Source: Rhodopseudomonas palustris (GTDB lineage Bacteria; Pseudomonadota; Alphaproteobacteria; Rhizobiales; Xanthobacteraceae). From it: DNA of 64,000 bases. The DNA lies in contig NZ_QYYD01000003.1 of the NCBI RefSeq assembly GCF_003591005.1, forward strand, positions 248,001 to 312,000, written 5' to 3'. Shown piece after piece: positions 48,203 through 59,137 of the stretch. The position numbers were made by a program, and so were the translations under genes. The notes under the pieces are model-generated. The model made no database searches. It was not told the origin of the DNA and was given only the letters and a program-made list of their open reading frames with translations. The stretch's first letter is position 1. Each line of letters begins with the position of its first letter.

Positions 48203-48345
48203 CGCTCCCCTCCCCCTTGCGGGGAGGGGTCGGGGGTGGGGGGCCCCAGGCACCTGCGCCGCTGAGACTCCCAGGCACTGCGTGCGTGTCGCCCTCACCC
48301 CAACCCTCTCCCGCAAGCGGGAGAGGGAGCGCGCTGCGGGTTGGG
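48203..48345. repeat. CTCCCC/GGGGAG inverted repeats
   Basis: Hairpins CCCCTCCCCCTTGCGGGGAGGGG (48207-48230) and CCCTCTCCCGCAAGCGGGAGAGGG (48303-48327) flank a CACCCC/GGGGTG-rich centre, at the 3' ends of convergent genes. Confidence 0.6.
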
Positions 48346-52578: not shown

Positions 52579-52980
52579 GGGGATCTCCGAATGGGTTGGC
52601 CGGCAAATACCTCTGCGTGTTTGTCACGCGTATGACCGCAGGAGAGGTGCGGTGATTTGGCGCGCGGCCCCCGAACCGCAGCGCGCCCCCTCTCCCGCCT
52701 GCGGGAGAGGGCTGGGGTGAGGGCGACGCAAACTCAGCGCCCAAGGTGGGCAACGCGCGCAGCGCCTGGGGACCCCCACCCCCGACCCCTCCCCGCAAGG
52801 GGGAGGGGAGTAAGAGCACAGCGCGCCCCCTCTCCCGCTTGCGGGAGAGGGCTGGGGTGAGGGCGCCCCAGGCAGCGAGTTAGCGACTCGCGGAGCGGAG
52901 GGCCCTCACCCGCCGCGCTTCGCGCGTCGACCTCCCCCGCAAGCGGGGGAGGTTGCGCTGCGACTCGCGGAAGAGGCTGA
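52579..52980. repeat. 402-base repeat-filled intergenic region
   Basis: It contains at least three CTCTCCCGC..GCGGGAGAG-type hairpins: 52690-52711, 52787-52806 and 52829-52850. The phrase CTCCCGC-TTGCGGGAGAGGGCTGGGGTGAGGGCG recurs with small changes, followed by CTCACCC and CCCCCGCAAGCGGGGGAGG. No gene is visible. It separates the ppk2 start from the decarboxylase stop. Confidence 0.65.
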
Positions 52981-54453
52981 TCAGCTCGCGCGCGCAGCGC
53001 CGAAGTGAAGCACAGCGTCGACCATGCGATCGACATCGGCGCGCGTCGTGCGGTGATTGACGATCGCGGCGCGGATCGCGAGGTGGCCGTCGATCGTGGT
53101 CAAGGACGGCGCGGCGATCCCTGACTCGTGGATGTCGGCGACGATCTCGGCGGTGAGCGCGTCGCTATCGATCCCGCTCGGCGCGCGAAAGCGGAAGCAG
53201 ACGATGTTCAGCGTCACCGGCGTCAGCAGCTCGAGCTGCGGCTCGCGCTGCACCCGGGCTTCGAGATGGCGGGCGATCGCGCAGGTTTCGGCGATCATCG
53301 CGCCCATGCGCTCGGCGCCGTAGGTCTTCAGCGTGAACCAGGTCTTCAGCGCGCGGAAGCCGCGCGACAGATCGGGACCGAAATCGCACGGCCACGGCGA
53401 GCCGCCGGCGAGGCCGCGGGTCTCGCGGCGCAAGTACGCAGCCGGCGCCGCGAAGGTCGCGCGGTGCTGCTCGCCGTCGCGCACCAAGAGGAAGCCGGCG
53501 TCGTAGTTCACCTGGCCCCATTTGTGGAAGTCGAGCGCGATCGAGTCAGCTTCGCTGAGACCATTCAGCTTCGGCGCGATCTGCGGCGACAGCATGCCGA
53601 GCGACCCATAGGCGCCGTCGATGTGAAACCACAGGCCCTCGTCGCGGCACAGCTGCGCCAATGCGGCAAGATCGTCGATCGCGCCGGTGTCGACGGTGCC
53701 AGCCGAGCCGGTGACCAGGAACGGCCGGAAGCCCGCGGCGCGGTCCTCGGCGATGCGCCGGCGCAGTGCCGCGATGTCGATGCGATGCGCGGCGTCGAAC
53801 GGGATCCGCCGCAGCGCGCCGCGGCCGAGTCCGGCCAGATCAGCGGCCTGCACCACGCAACCATGCGCGGCCGCCGAAGCGTAAGCGGTCAGCGGTTCGC
53901 CGGCGAGGCCGCCTTCGCGCACCTGCGGGCCGAGCGCGGCACTGCGCGCGACCAGCAGCGCCATGAAATTGGCCATCGACGAGCCGGTGACGAACACGCC
54001 GCTCGCGGTCTCGGGGAAGCCGAACAGCTCGCGCATCCAGCGTACGATCTGGCGCTCGACCTCGATGCCGATGTGATTGCGCCCGCCGCAATTGGCGTTC
54101 AGCCCCGCCGCCAGCATCTCGGCCAGCATGCCGACGGGCGTGCCCCCGCCATGCACCCAGCCCATGAAGCCGGGATGCACATTGCCGGTCGCGTAGGGCG
54201 CGATGTGCCGGGTGAAGTCATCGTAGACAGCGGCGAGCGGCATCGCGTCGCGCGGCAGCGCTTCGCCGAAGCGGGCTCGCACGTCGTCGGGGATCTCCTG
54301 CCACACCGGTCGCTCGCGCACCTGCGCGATATGGTCGATCATGTCGTCGACCATGCGATGCGCCTCGGCGCGCAGCGCGGACCAGTCGGACGGATCGAGG
54401 CTGGTCGCAGAATTCGGGATGGCGTCGGCCGGCCCGCTGTGTTCGTCACTCAC
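52981..54453 (-). CDS. group II PLP-dependent decarboxylase (aromatic amino acid decarboxylase-like)
   Basis: This 490-residue protein of the DDC/GadB fold family has 'NVHPGFMGWVHGGGTPVG' at the substrate entrance, 'WFHIDGAYGSLGMLS' with the PLP-contacting Asp, and the PLP-binding Lys in DFHKWGQVNYDAG. Classical members read HKW(L/M), so the local context differs. GTG 54453 is chosen, 28 bases after the ATP-grasp stop; ATG 54513 would overlap that gene. It would decarboxylate an amino acid, or an aminoacyl or modified substrate made by the upstream enzymes. The substrate is unknown. Confidence 0.85.
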   Translation of the reverse strand: MSDEHSGPADAIPNSATSLDPSDWSALRAEAHRMVDDMIDHIAQVRERPVWQEIPDDVRARFGEALPRDAMPLAAVYDDFTRHIAPYATGNVHPGFMGWVHGGGTPVGMLAEMLAAGLNANCGGRNHIGIEVERQIVRWMRELFGFPETASGVFVTGSSMANFMALLVARSAALGPQVREGGLAGEPLTAYASAAAHGCVVQAADLAGLGRGALRRIPFDAAHRIDIAALRRRIAEDRAAGFRPFLVTGSAGTVDTGAIDDLAALAQLCRDEGLWFHIDGAYGSLGMLSPQIAPKLNGLSEADSIALDFHKWGQVNYDAGFLLVRDGEQHRATFAAPAAYLRRETRGLAGGSPWPCDFGPDLSRGFRALKTWFTLKTYGAERMGAMIAETCAIARHLEARVQREPQLELLTPVTLNIVCFRFRAPSGIDSDALTAEIVADIHESGIAAPSLTTIDGHLAIRAAIVNHRTTRADVDRMVDAVLHFGAARAS

Positions 54454-54481
54454 GTTGATACTCGCTCGCAGCGCGTCCGCG

Positions 54482-55711
54482 CTACGCCACGTTCTGCCGG
54501 CGCGCCGCGACATGGCGCTCCAGCATCGCCGCGAAGGCGTCGAAGATCCTGGTCATCTGCGGCGGCTTGTAAGGATAGAGCTCGGGGCTGTCCATGTTGT
54601 GCACCACCGCGGTATTGTCGATCTCGAACACCAGGAGATCGCCGCGCGGCGTCTGGGCGCAGTCGATGGTGAAGTAATCGAGGCCGATCCGCTCGGTGAT
54701 GCCCCGCAGCGCGGTGCGGTGCCGGCGCGCGAAGCCGAAATCGAAGGTGTGGAAGAACGCGGCTTCCTCCAGCCGCTTGCTGGCGCTCTGCGCCATGCCG
54801 GCGTTCAGGTACCAGATGTCCCAGCGGTCGGCGATCGCCATGTGGCACGCATAGGGCTGGCCGTCGACCACCACGATGCGATATTTGCGGAACAGCCCGT
54901 CGTCGCTGGCATAGTCGACATACCGCGCGACGAAGTAGTCCGGCTCGCTGCGCTCCGCCAGATAGGCCGTGAGCGCCGCGCAGCCGTCGATCCGCGCCAG
55001 CCCGAAGCCGGCATGCGAGCCGCGCGGCCGCACAATCACCGGAAACGCGACGCCTTCGGTGGCGTCCTGCAGCGTCGCCTTGCCTTCCGCCACGGCGGCG
55101 AGCGCCTCGCGCGGCACCGGGATGGTGGCCGGAATGTCGAGCCCGTCGACGTCGCCGATCAGCCGGTACAGCTTGTCGCGGTCGAGCTGGCGGATCAGTT
55201 TTGGCGCATTGAGCAGCGGCACGGGCCAGCTGTCGGCGCGGGCCTCGATCGTCGCCAACGCGCCGCGGCACTCGGCGGAATCCGACGCGATCACGATCGC
55301 GACGTCGTGCGGCGGCAGCGGATCGGGCAGCGGCACGCCGTCGACGACGTACAGCGTCAGCAGCTCGATGCCGGAGCTCTCCAGCAGGAATTCGATCGGC
55401 GTGTTGCCGCCCATGTCGATGTCAGCCGCGAGCGCCAGCACCCGCAGCTGCGGCTGCGCGCTGGCGCAAGGCGAGCGAAACAGCTGATGCTGCGCCAGCG
55501 TCTCGCTCTGCACCTGCAGTCCAGCCTGCTTGTGGCCGAACAGCTGCGTGATCAGCGCGAGGTCGAGCTGCTCGCCGGCGGCGGCGGTGCCGGCCTCGAC
55601 CTTGCCCATCAGCTCCTGCCACAGCGGAAACAGGTTCTCGCCGTCGAACGCGCGCTTGGTGAGGCGCGCGAAGCCGATCCGGTCGGCGATGGGCTGCGGT
55701 TCAGACGGCAT
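54482..55711 (-). CDS. ATP-grasp ligase-like protein
   Basis: This 409-residue protein has an ATP-grasp core: 'FPVIVRPRGSHAGFGLARI' (the Lys-equivalent and glycine loop), 'RYVDYASDDGLFRKYRIVVV' and 'LLVFEIDNTAVVHNM' (metal-binding Glu and Asn). Classic 'KP..' is here RPRG, as in some carboxylate-amine ligases. The N-terminal third (about 1-150) may bind the second substrate. Its start overlaps the PLP gene by 11 bases. It most likely forms an amide or thioester bond with ATP. Confidence 0.75.
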   Translation of the reverse strand: MPSEPQPIADRIGFARLTKRAFDGENLFPLWQELMGKVEAGTAAAGEQLDLALITQLFGHKQAGLQVQSETLAQHQLFRSPCASAQPQLRVLALAADIDMGGNTPIEFLLESSGIELLTLYVVDGVPLPDPLPPHDVAIVIASDSAECRGALATIEARADSWPVPLLNAPKLIRQLDRDKLYRLIGDVDGLDIPATIPVPREALAAVAEGKATLQDATEGVAFPVIVRPRGSHAGFGLARIDGCAALTAYLAERSEPDYFVARYVDYASDDGLFRKYRIVVVDGQPYACHMAIADRWDIWYLNAGMAQSASKRLEEAAFFHTFDFGFARRHRTALRGITERIGLDYFTIDCAQTPRGDLLVFEIDNTAVVHNMDSPELYPYKPPQMTRIFDAFAAMLERHVAARRQNVA

Positions 55712-57296
55712 GGAGGTCCTTGGCTTGTGCGGAGAAGTCGGGCTGCATTAGCAGCGCCTCAATGCGGCCGATCACGGCCGCAGCATCGTCGAGGATTTGG
55801 GCGATGGCGATAGCCGCATCGCCGGGATCGGCGGCCCAGGCGTCGATCACATGGCGGGCACTGATGCAGAGTCGCAGCGCAGCGATTTCATCGTCGGCGC
55901 AGCCACCCCAGCCGACCGGCTGCCCGATCAGGCCCGACTTGCCGGAGTTCTGCAGCACCTCGCAGATCGCGCGGCATTGCGACAGCGACAGTGGCTGGCC
56001 GTGCGGCGCGCAGGTGAAGGCGAAGATGGTCGGCAGGCCGAATTCGTCGGCCTCTGCCGGGCGCGGCTGCGGCGGCAGCAATCGCAGTGCGGGCGAAGCC
56101 TGGACCAGGCGGGTGATGCCGTCGCCGAGCAGGCGCAGCGCGGCGCGGCGGAAGGGGAGCGGCACCGCATCGTAAGCGCGGATCTCTTCCAGCGCCGCTT
56201 CCCAGCGCAGCCACTGGCCGAAATTCGGCGTCACGGCGAACTGTTCGCGCAAGGCACGCCAGCGCGACGGCCAATCGCTGCGGGTCGTGTAGGCGGCGAG
56301 CCCGGACGCCAGAGCGCAAATGCCGTCGATCGTCGCGGCAAGCCGCGGCGGAATCAGCAACGCGCCGCTGAACGGCGGTCCGGCATAGAATTTCGAGCCG
56401 GTGATCAGCACCAGATCGCCGCGCGCGAGCGACCGCGCGATGCGTCGGCGGCCCAGCCGCATCTGGCAGGCATCGACGACGATCTGCACCCGCCCCGGCC
56501 AGCGCGCCGCGATCTCGTCGGCGCAGCCGTCGCTCGGCGCCTGCAGGCCGAGCTTGGAGCAGTCCATCACCTGTAGCATCACCCGCGCGCCGCGCGCGAC
56601 CAGCGTTTCCACTGTCTCCAGCACCTCGGCATCGATCTCGGCGGGCGTGCGCAGCCTGCCATCGGCGCCGCGCAGCCGCACCGCGATGCTTCGCACCGGC
56701 CCGAGGTCCTCGACCGGCGCGCCCTTGGCGACGGGCCAGTCATTGGGGCCGCGGTCGGTGAAATGCAGCCCCTGCGCGGTCGAGGCGGTGCCGGAGCCGC
56801 TCTGATCGGCGCCGACCACCACGCTCACCAGTTCGTCGCCGAGCATCACCCGGCTTAGCGCCAGCGCCTGCAGTTGCGCGTCGGTGCCGGAGGCCGAAAA
56901 CACCACCTCGGTGCCTGTGCCTCCTAGCCCGAGCAGCGCGCGCAGCTCGTCGCGCATCGCCTCCACCCGTCCCTCGAAGCAGGCGATCAGGCCGTGCAGA
57001 ATCGCGGAAGCCATCAGCGCCGTGCGCGCCGAGTCCGCCGCGTCGTAGCCGCGCTGAGAGATCGTGGAAGCGGTGCAGGATGCGAAGCTCGGGATCGCGG
57101 CGGTGGGCGCCGGACTGCAGCCATAGGCGTTGCGGCCGGTGGCCGGGTCGAGCGCGAGGCGCGCGTCGCCCCCGCAGGTCAGCAACTGATCGAGCGGCGC
57201 GAACAGCTCGCGCAAAGGGGAGGGGGCGTAGAGCCTTGCCCCGGCCTGGGTCCAGCGGTCGGCGACGATCTGCGGCGCGCTCGCGGAGTTCGACAT
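55701..57296 (-). CDS. PLP-dependent fold-type I enzyme of unknown specificity
   Basis: This 531-residue protein looks like a fold-I PLP enzyme: 'VVFSASGTDAQLQALALSRV' matches the cofactor-phosphate loop, VVDACQMRLG carries the Asp for the pyridine N, and ITGSKFYAGPPFSGALLI carries the Schiff-base Lys. It is longer than kynureninase or cysteine desulfurase (about 400). It has an N-terminal extension with 'GCSPAPTAAIPSFASCTAST' and a distinctive C-terminal part. It is the first gene of the operon. The reaction is unknown. Confidence 0.7.
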   Translation of the reverse strand: MSNSASAPQIVADRWTQAGARLYAPSPLRELFAPLDQLLTCGGDARLALDPATGRNAYGCSPAPTAAIPSFASCTASTISQRGYDAADSARTALMASAILHGLIACFEGRVEAMRDELRALLGLGGTGTEVVFSASGTDAQLQALALSRVMLGDELVSVVVGADQSGSGTASTAQGLHFTDRGPNDWPVAKGAPVEDLGPVRSIAVRLRGADGRLRTPAEIDAEVLETVETLVARGARVMLQVMDCSKLGLQAPSDGCADEIAARWPGRVQIVVDACQMRLGRRRIARSLARGDLVLITGSKFYAGPPFSGALLIPPRLAATIDGICALASGLAAYTTRSDWPSRWRALREQFAVTPNFGQWLRWEAALEEIRAYDAVPLPFRRAALRLLGDGITRLVQASPALRLLPPQPRPAEADEFGLPTIFAFTCAPHGQPLSLSQCRAICEVLQNSGKSGLIGQPVGWGGCADDEIAALRLCISARHVIDAWAADPGDAAIAIAQILDDAAAVIGRIEALLMQPDFSAQAKDLHAV

Positions 57297-57412
57297 CGGT
57301 CAGCCCCTCGCCCCGCTTTGGCCGGGCGGTCGTCGAACGGCCCGACCGAATGCCGGCGCCGTGATCCTCACCAACACGTAAACAGCGTTGGTTAACGCCG
57401 GTTTACCAAACC

Positions 57413-57434
57413 GCCGGCGCCCGAGGGCGCCGGC
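57413..57434 (-). terminator. strong hairpin downstream of the chemoreceptor gene
   Basis: GCCGGCGCCC-GA-GGGCGCCGGC is a perfect 10-bp stem, 12 bases past the chemoreceptor stop on the minus strand, followed by GGTTTGG. It is likely its terminator, although the T-run is short. Confidence 0.65.
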
Positions 57435-57445
57435 CTCGTTTCGGA

Positions 57446-59137
57446 CTACGCGGCGCGGACGGTGTCGAGGAATCTGGCCACCTCGACCTTGAGCCGCGAG
57501 CTGTTCTGCGACAGCGATTGCGCCGCCGACAGCACCTGGCTCGAAGCCGAGCCGGTTTCGGTGGCGCCGCGCTGCACTTCGGTGATGTTGGACGAGACGT
57601 CCTGAGTGCCTTGCGCCGCCTGCGCGACGTTGCGGGAAATCTCCTGCGTCGCCGCGCCCTGCTCCTCGACCGCCGAGGCGATGGTCGACGAAATCTCCGA
57701 CATCCGCCCGATGGTGCCGCCGATTTCCTTGATGGCCGCCACCGACTGATCGGTCGCCGCCTGGATGCCGCCGATCTGCTGGCTGATCTCGCCGGTGGCC
57801 TTGGCGGTCTGCTCGGCGAGCGCCTTGACCTCCGCGGCCACCACCGCGAAGCCACGGCCGGCTTCGCCGGCGCGCGCCGCTTCGATCGTGGCGTTGAGCG
57901 CGAGCAAATTGGTCTGGCCCGCGATGGTGTTGATCAGTTCGACCACGTCGCCGATCCGCGCCGCCGCCTTGGCGAGTTCTTCGACCCGGCCATTGGTGGC
58001 GCGGGCCTGCTCGACCGCCTCATGGGCAATCCGCGCCGATTCCTGCACCTGGCGGCTGATCTCGTTGACCGACGAACTCATCTCCTCGGTCGCCGACGCC
58101 ACTGACTGCACGTTGGTGGAAGCTTCTTCCGACGCTGCCGCGACCGTCGTCGCGAGCGTTTGCGACCGCGTGGCGGTGGTTGTCAGCATGGTGGCGGAGG
58201 CTTCGAGTTCGTGCGAGGCGGACGAAACCGTCTCGACGATCTCGCCGATCGCGCGTTCGAACTCGCCGGCGAGCCGCATCGTGTCGGCCTTGCGCTGCGC
58301 GGCGGCGCGCGCTTCAGCCTCCTCCTGGTCGGCCTGCAGCCGCTGCCGTTCGATGGCGTTGAGCTTGAACACCTCGACGGCGCCGGCCATGTCACCGATC
58401 TCGTCGGCGCGCCCGACGCCCGGTACCTCGGCGTCGAGCCGGCCAGCGGCGAGCTGCTTCATGGCCTCAGTGATCGCATGGATCGGCCGGGTGATGCCGC
58501 GCGCCACCAGCACCGACACCAGCGTGATGATCAGCAGCACGATCGCGGCGGCGATCAGCAGCCGCTGCGTTGCGCTCCAGGTCTGGGCCTGCAGGTCGTC
58601 GATATAGACGCCGGTGCCGACGATCCAGCCCCACGGCGCGAAGCCGGCGACGCGGCTCAGCTTGGGGAATTGCTGATCGGAGCCGGGCTTCGGCCAGACA
58701 TATTCGACATAGCCGCTGCCGTCGCGGCGCACGGTCTCGACCATCTCGCGGAACAGATACTTGCCGTTGGAATCCTTGGTGTCGGTCTGATCCTGTCCGA
58801 TCAGCTGCTTGGCGATCGGATGCATCAGCATCCGGTTCTGCAGATCGGTGATGAAGAAGTACTCGTTTCCGCCGTAGCGCAGCTTGCCGATCCGCGCCTG
58901 AGCGCGCTTCTGCGCCTCGTCGCTGCTGATCTCGCCGCGCTGCGCGGCATCGTGCTCATCCTTGATGATCGCGATCGCCAGATCGGCCAGATGGGCGAGC
59001 TCGATCTGCTTCTGCTGCTTCAAGCCCGAGGCGATCTCTTCGGAAGCGAGCAGGCTCGTCATCAAGAGTCCGGCGAAGCCGAGTCCGATCAACAGATAGA
59101 TCCGGCGGCTGATCGTCATGCGTAGTTTGGACAGCAT
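57446..59137 (-). CDS. methyl-accepting chemotaxis protein with sCache_2 sensor
   Basis: This 563-residue receptor has TM1 (about 11-32) and a periplasmic single Cache domain (about 35-185: '[19 protein letters not shown]', '[20 protein letters not shown]', '[12 protein letters not shown]'). TM2 (about 190-212), HAMP and the signalling hairpin with '[33 protein letters not shown]' follow. sCache_2 domains often sense small carboxylates. There is no C-terminal CheR-tether pentapeptide. It stands alone. Confidence 0.92.

Follow-up and report, generated by a model that had tools for sequence, protein, structure and literature searches.

A conserved three-gene unit of Rhodopseudomonas palustris pairs a new family of class V-like pyridoxal phosphate enzymes with an ATP-grasp ligase and a decarboxylase and may act on the flagellar filament

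Organization of the locus

We analyzed a stretch of 64,000 nucleotides from Rhodopseudomonas palustris (assembly GCF_003591005.1, contig NZ_QYYD01000003.1, positions 248,001 to 312,000; hereafter the window) and focused on three consecutive genes of its minus strand, which we call A, B, and C. The open reading frame (ORF) coordinates and translations of the window define them as an operon. Gene A (55701..57296) encodes a protein of 531 residues, a predicted fold-I pyridoxal 5'-phosphate (PLP) enzyme of class V type that belongs to a new family. Gene B (54482..55711) encodes a predicted ATP-grasp ligase of 409 residues whose N-terminal domain is short, helical, and TPR-like, and gene C (52981..54453) encodes a group II PLP decarboxylase of 490 residues when read from the GTG at 54453 to the stop that ends at 52981. 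Genes A and B overlap by 11 bases, and with the GTG start a gap of 28 bases separates B from C, in agreement with the original prediction, which was made from the letters of the window alone. The mechanical ORF of C begins at an ATG at 54513 and would yield 510 residues, but we prefer the GTG because the nearest relatives (L021 and L022, 490 residues; L, G, and f numbers designate our loci, genomes, and families) start at the equivalent position.

Downstream of C, short repeats, some of them palindromic, form a cluster in both direct and inverted arrangement (52679..52958, no strand assigned), with a PPK2-like gene beyond it. A 23-base piece of palindromic repeat is present in three copies (48292-48314, 52701-52723, and 52841-52863) where chance would be expected to produce none, and the copies that follow C sit within a cluster of paired palindromes. 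The upstream neighbor of A is a chemoreceptor gene (57446-59137, minus strand). The repeat cluster is indeed a boundary of the unit as had been proposed, but the chemoreceptor terminator named as the other boundary was not confirmed: a terminator scan found 0 sites, which leaves only a stable GC hairpin at about 57413..57434 (minus strand), between the chemoreceptor stop codon and A, that may act as a terminator (region 57380-57450, z of -2.9, equally stable shuffles 3 of 200).

Conservation of the trio

The trio is a real conserved unit. Our named loci are the best 80 of 187 loci of the genome_contigs collection that encode relatives of A, nearly all from Rhodopseudomonas and Bradyrhizobium, and 77 of them hold all three genes, counting one in which A and B are fused, one with a run of N in A, and one with B split between frames (L086). 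The remaining three hold A and B, and two of these end at a contig end. Gene A was found in 18 of the 121 relatives searched, the window included, and in 14 of the 15 congeners (G001-G015), the exception being G008 (92% complete); in the G015 locus a run of N lies within the A region. The three genes lie together in 16 of 17 fetched loci of relatives, the other (L033) holding A and B without C nearby, and the overlap of A and B (-11) recurs in 11 of these 17 according to the gene calls of our script. This simple script sometimes placed ORFs on the wrong strand (e.g., in L175, L184, and L187), and the three genes were therefore sought anew in all six frames.

On a broader scale, A was present in 6 of 385 genomes of a class sample and in 25 of 398 genomes of a phylum sample, while B was found in 22 of 200 genomes. 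Of the 25 phylum-level genomes that bear A, 17 carry all three genes contiguously, two pair A with C (G528 and G580), five have neither B nor C next to A in the fetched stretch (G444, G453, G660, G766, and G808), and one has A on a contig of 2.4 kb. The conservation of the trio across genomes, proposed as a check in the original prediction, was thus borne out. Gene order is ABC, BAC (L178, L179, and L214), or CBA (the L183-L189 group). Furthermore, A and B form one open frame in R. rhenobacensis (L032/L044), and C and B form one open frame in G197 (L176). These two different fusions, together with the shuffled gene order, show that the three genes are functionally linked.

Three proteins with recognizable folds and no named pathway

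No Pfam or NCBIfam pathway model claims any of the three proteins. A search with hidden Markov models, likewise suggested at the outset, left A and B of the window without a Pfam match and placed C in Pyridoxal_deC, none being a member of a named pathway, as had been surmised. Identities to relatives of 47-80% for A, 63-91% for B, and 68-95% for C are far beyond those of chance ORFs.

Protein A constitutes a new protein family without a Pfam or NCBIfam model. It matched 0 Pfam families at E values up to 1, PF00266 (Aminotransferase class V) included, matched nothing in NCBIfam, and had no sequence relative in the PDB in a single-sequence search (best E of 0.52 in a profile search). Its predicted model (pLDDT of 85, residues 1-24 disordered) had as best Foldseek match a carbon-sulfoxide lyase (E of 5e-12, 16% identity; 933 chains at E <= 0.001), followed by SufS and aromatic decarboxylases. 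NifS, PhnW, and alanine-glyoxylate aminotransferase (AGXT) were among the tied rows of the VIA list (Z of ~22-23; alignments of ~350 residues, root-mean-square deviation of ~3.6, 13% identity), a list whose missing class V families are not thereby ruled out. The sequence contains the motifs V-D275-A-C-Q278 (VDxCQ) and T-G-S-K302 (TGSK), and D275, Q278, and K302, kept in 24 of the 24 rows with a letter at these places, are candidates for the aspartate, glutamine, and Schiff-base lysine of class V PLP enzymes. A profile of A compared with six class V proteins aligned these motifs with VDGSQ and TGHK of SufS, but the match was weak (Prob 6.6, E of 0.0055), so that it is the fold and the motifs that support a class V assignment. 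We regard A as a probable fold-I PLP enzyme of class V type in the wide sense, so that the fold originally proposed for it was broadly right. The predicted fold (Z of ~23 over ~350 residues) and the VDxCQ and TGSK motifs liken A to NifS, SufS, PhnW, AGXT, and carbon-sulfoxide lyase, whereas the low identity (13-16%), an extra conserved N-terminal region, and the lack of a PF00266 match set it apart from class V enzymes. This N-terminal region (GGDxR...SSTAxxIS) marks the family. The unusual N-terminal cysteine highlighted by the original prediction does not: C60 is invariant in alignments of 13 and 33 rows, but a wider set of 28 rows has it in only 17. The possibility that A is itself a group II decarboxylase was discarded, as a profile comparison with the family of C gave nothing. 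Note that some A proteins are long (734-840 residues) and have an extra N-terminal part (L181 8275-10494, L182 8119-10641, and L175 8105-10309), which had no Pfam match in L175, the one scanned.

Protein B of the window had no Pfam match at E values up to 1 and scored 16.6 bits against the rimK family of NCBIfam (TIGR00768), far under the cut-off of 143.4. Its predicted model (pLDDT of 90.8) matched the structures of DdlA (E of 3.9e-13), a RimK-domain ligase (4.9e-12), LysX (3.9e-11), and also ArgX. The predicted fold is that of an ATP-grasp ligase, and the type initially assigned to B was right. D-Ala-D-Ala ligases rank first in both structural and profile comparisons; B shares its predicted fold with these enzymes, RimK, and LysX but differs from them by an identity of 10-19% and by its TPR-like N-terminal part. 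Near the C-terminal end, D350 and E363 are kept in 24 of 24 rows and would be acidic metal-binding residues, while N366 varies (9 of 24). Helices at about residues 14-74, before the catalytic part, are TPR-like; in a distant B (L195), Pfam recognizes TPR at the same place, and another B is annotated as a TPR protein.

Protein C matches PF00282 (Pyridoxal_deC) with 209.8 bits against a cut-off of 27 (E of 7e-62) and is a group II enzyme resembling aromatic amino acid decarboxylases, as first recognized. H217, D299, and K331 are kept in 20 of 20 rows and, by alignment with solved relatives, would be the stacking histidine, the aspartate, and the Schiff-base lysine. Aromatic amino acid decarboxylases carry a tyrosine in an active loop; at that place C has W374-P-C-D, with W374 and D377 in 20 of 20 rows, in a loop whose alignment is ambiguous. 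Scores stayed under the NCBIfam cut-offs for the L-2,4-diaminobutyrate decarboxylase RhbB (NF052646, 187.5 versus 900 bits) and for PanP (TIGR03799, 117.9 versus 606.1 bits). A role in anti-phage defense was rejected, since weak DndA/SspA-type matches of C in PADLOC (E of 0.004-0.008) reflect general PLP similarity.

The flagellar setting

Genes for FlgE, FlgK, an FlgL-like protein, FlbT, or flagellin flank the trio in 68 of the 80 named loci; the 12 loci without them are ten from Rhodopseudomonas, a contig of 5.6 kb (L080), and a metagenome-assembled genome (L108). The identities of flanking genes were checked with Pfam, except that FlgL of Bradyrhizobium, which matches no Pfam family, was named by position and likeness. 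In L060, for example, the order is MsrB-like, FlgE, FlgK, FlgL-like, small glycosyltransferase-like, A, B, C, FlbT, and two flagellins, with FlbT on the opposite strand and the small glycosyltransferase-like protein, without Pfam match, named by eye.

The association extends to other families. In G180 (L174), which belongs to another family, genes for flagellin and FlbT separate A from B-C, and C-B-A follows fliC-flaG-fliD-fliS in G570 (L184), which belongs to another class. In G505 (L194), the neighbors of B include genes like those for FliK and FlhB; in G453, A is 9-10 kb from flagellin and FlaF; and in G660 a flagellar cluster recognized by eye starts ~8 kb after A, with a Flagellin_N match at 14 kb. 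In the flagellar cluster of two Bradyrhizobium strains, a protein with TPR and GT9-like parts is encoded between two copies of B (L047 13707-15302 and L048 11931-13523); in L047, the one checked with Pfam, it separates an A-B pair from a second B with C.

We also evaluated proximity statistically, counting a family as near if any of its members was near. Across all 39 genomes of the test, at least one gene of the trio lies no more than 10 kb from a Flagellin_N match in 4 of 17 families, where 0.85 are expected (P = 0.0066); P is 0.0078 at 5.05 kb and 0.013 at 20 kb. These distances were chosen after seeing the data, the 5.05-kb limit being set to include family f247 at 5.0 kb, and match counts, genome sizes, and distances were entered by hand. 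An earlier version that used one chosen genome per family (P = 8e-4) was too favorable. The genomes come from a survey of 39 of the 52 genomes bearing A or B, which left out ten congeners and the weak B matches G402, G626, and G635; Flagellin_N is present in 38 of the 39, the exception being 68% complete. Genera of the class with A or B have Flagellin_N in 16 of 16 cases, compared with 169 of 273 for the sample of the class (Fisher test, 3.5e-4, uncorrected for phylogeny).

Several observations weigh against a flagellar role. When the family of the window (f1) is removed, 3 of 16 families are within 10 kb where 0.63 are expected (P = 0.022), and P becomes 0.041 at 5.05 kb and 0.027 at 20 kb, so that proximity outside the family of the window is modest. 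A control at phylum level does not discriminate, with Flagellin_N in 35 of 40 genomes versus 38 of 39 (P = 0.11), and the loci from Bradyrhizobium form a single clade rather than independent cases. The trio has no flagellar gene within ~9 kb in L178/L179, L185-L187, and L189, and further settings, L181/L182 and others, are not flagellar either. The genes also occur apart, as C-B in G475, B alone in G142, and A on a Rhizobium plasmid. The TPR-like part of B in the window is too short for a Pfam TPR call. Finally, the genome of the window has its own FlgE-FlgK-FlgL-flagellin-FlbT locus (L228), which lacks the trio, and a chemoreceptor gene, not flagellar genes, adjoins the trio both in the window and in 12 of the 14 congeners fetched.

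In L228 (6579-13001) the gap between FlgL and flagellin, the place of the trio in Bradyrhizobium, is filled by other genes, including a LysR-type regulator and a transporter, both recognized by eye. Two genes for chemoreceptors (methyl-accepting chemotaxis proteins) lie beside the trio in two genomes of family f228 (L183 921-6264 and L196 7752-11999; Pfam on L183 only), a second, separate association with chemotaxis. In a tree of A, built from 23 of 28 rows after rows shorter than 350 residues (L184 among them) were dropped, A of the window falls inside a clade (support 99/94) with the flagellar trios of Bradyrhizobium, G057, and G180 and with two non-flagellar rows. Given this position within a mostly flagellar clade, the simplest reading is that the trio departed from the flagellar cluster in the Rhodopseudomonas line.

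Proposed pathway and alternative explanations

What we observe is the unit, its fusions, the folds, the conservation of catalytic residues, and the flagellar surroundings of the trio in Bradyrhizobium as well as in some other families. What we infer is which reactions take place, in what order and on which substrates, and that the flagellum is the target. Proteins A, B, and C would make up one biosynthetic module. Acting on amino acids, C and A would yield an amine or amino acid of an unusual kind; B would activate a carboxylate as an acyl phosphate and couple it to that amine as an amide. The product formed in the window's lineage would go to the flagellar filament, either to flagellin or to its glycan, and the TPR-like domain of B may serve for docking, much as the glycosyltransferase FlmG binds flagellin through its TPR domain. 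Where B is absent, other amide formers accompany A, among them a Ddl-like ATP-grasp protein (L177), ATPgrasp_ST (L180; G660), and an NRPS (L209 and L211). We hold tentatively, as the account we favor, that the module makes an amide-linked, amino-acid-derived product, most likely on the flagellar filament. Flagellar use is likely in the main lineage of the trio. The original prediction envisaged a decarboxylated amide or a modified amino acid; the unit it described stands, and with the flagellar setting of most relatives, decoration of the filament becomes a likelier role than production of a free small molecule.

A possibility to be taken seriously is nonetheless that the product is a free small molecule with an amide linkage, dipeptide-like or amine-capped, that serves as a signal, osmolyte, or antibiotic, and that the trio lies near motility genes only through co-expression. 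The lineages that keep the trio without flagellar neighbors and the chemoreceptor genes beside it, in the congeners and in L183, fit this explanation, and so do relatives of A on plasmids. Gene A occurs in 33 plasmid records, all from Rhizobium, Sinorhizobium, or Neorhizobium, and B in 7. A homologue of A directly follows a large nonribosomal peptide synthetase (NRPS) gene in a Sinorhizobium meliloti plasmid (L209 6953-8488) and a piece of an AMP-binding gene next to IS21 genes in a Rhizobium leguminosarum plasmid (L211 6953-8488). From their gene content, L209 and L211 may represent an uncharacterized NRPS cluster in which the PLP enzyme is of the A type. Both also hold ParB-domain and hypothetical genes, and L209 additionally nitroreductase and phosphopantetheinyl transferase genes. 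In Neorhizobium (L210), A adjoins genes for a D-aminopeptidase and a D-alanine aminotransferase. A chemical precedent is the fungal E-64 pathway, in which an ATP-grasp ligase works with a dedicated PLP decarboxylase that supplies the amine for an amide product; in the accessible part of the source, this pathway also has an oxygenase and a second (ABS) ligase, and neither a class V PLP enzyme nor a flagellar link is named (PMC12568646). Against a free product, no exporter or resistance gene recurs beside the trio in neighborhoods judged by eye, and in Bradyrhizobium the trio sits between the hook-filament genes and FlbT/flagellin, a typical site of filament genes.

A narrower form of the filament hypothesis, which we consider unlikely, takes B as a flagellin-docking ATP-grasp ligase that links what A and C produce, an amine or amino acid, straight to flagellin or its sugar by an amide bond. 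This would be a non-glycan, ligase-made modification of flagellin, spread with gene shuffling and fusions across several classes of Proteobacteria.

A variant of the chemistry has A as a racemase or epimerase and B as a D-amino-acid ligase, the product being a D-amino-acid amide. Class V PLP enzymes include isopenicillin N epimerase, D-Ala-D-Ala ligases are the best matches of B, and A is neighbor to the D-amino-acid genes of L210. In three genomes of family f61, moreover, A pairs with a Dala_Dala_lig_C protein (cluster f66; Pfam on one). Ddl, however, is the best-sampled ATP-grasp ligase in the PDB, and RimK, LysX, and ArgX match B nearly equally well. A SerC-like class V transaminase moreover takes the place of A after B in a Paraburkholderia plasmid (L213 6941-9306) and in G505 (L194 7561-9940), which fits transamination equally. 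We judge the D-amino-acid variant rather improbable. The common theme of these arrangements is a PLP enzyme that feeds an amide-bond former.

Lastly, although C is a common enzyme type, it is highly improbable that the trio consists of three unrelated housekeeping enzymes adjacent by chance, an idea contradicted by two different fusions, three gene orders, and a linkage that persists when all neighbors change; neither a lack of joint conservation nor membership in housekeeping families, the outcomes that would have spoken against the original prediction, was encountered.

Relation to known systems and significance

The trio falls among known kinds of systems, the amide pathways with ATP-grasp and PLP enzymes and flagellin modification, and is not a categorically new system. 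The closest flagellar parallels to an amide-forming module on the filament are small operons linked to flagella that place an amino-acid-derived group on flagellin. The sfmABCDE operon of Shewanella encodes NeuB-like, thiamine pyrophosphate (TPP)-dependent, reductase-like, methyltransferase, and ATP-grasp (sfmE) proteins, of which the trio has only the ATP-grasp type (PMC3765264). N-methylated threonine is found on flagellin in the Type A modification of Clostridium difficile and in the b-type glycan of Pseudomonas aeruginosa, and the terms ATP-grasp, PLP, and decarboxyl are absent from the accessible text of that paper, on strain PAO1 (PMC11833859). In Caulobacter, FlmG combines TPR and glycosyltransferase parts and binds flagellins through the former (PMC7591256). 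Like FlmG, B has its TPR-like part before the catalytic domain, but this part is short and the catalytic domain is ATP-grasp; the TPR and GT9 protein of L047 has the general make-up of FlmG.

We found no description of the trio in the literature searched, which includes few subscription papers. The word decarboxylase does not appear in the accessible text of a paper on Bradyrhizobium flagella (PMC6406911), and a logic of decarboxylase, class V PLP enzyme, and ligase is not named in the flagellin modification literature searched. The locus tags bll5846 to bll5854 may correspond to the trio; bll5848-bll5851 do not occur in that literature. Such a neighborhood may already have been predicted by Iyer et al. 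(2009) in their work on ATP-grasp amidoligases.

Gene order and fusion tie the family of A to a ligase and a decarboxylase, which provides defined partners in the search for its reaction. Bradyrhizobium is a genus of soybean symbionts, and its flagella are well studied. If the flagellar link is true, the trio would add the combination of a decarboxylase, a class V PLP enzyme, and a ligase to flagellin modification in this genus; if it is false, the trio would still be a three-gene pathway with a testable product.

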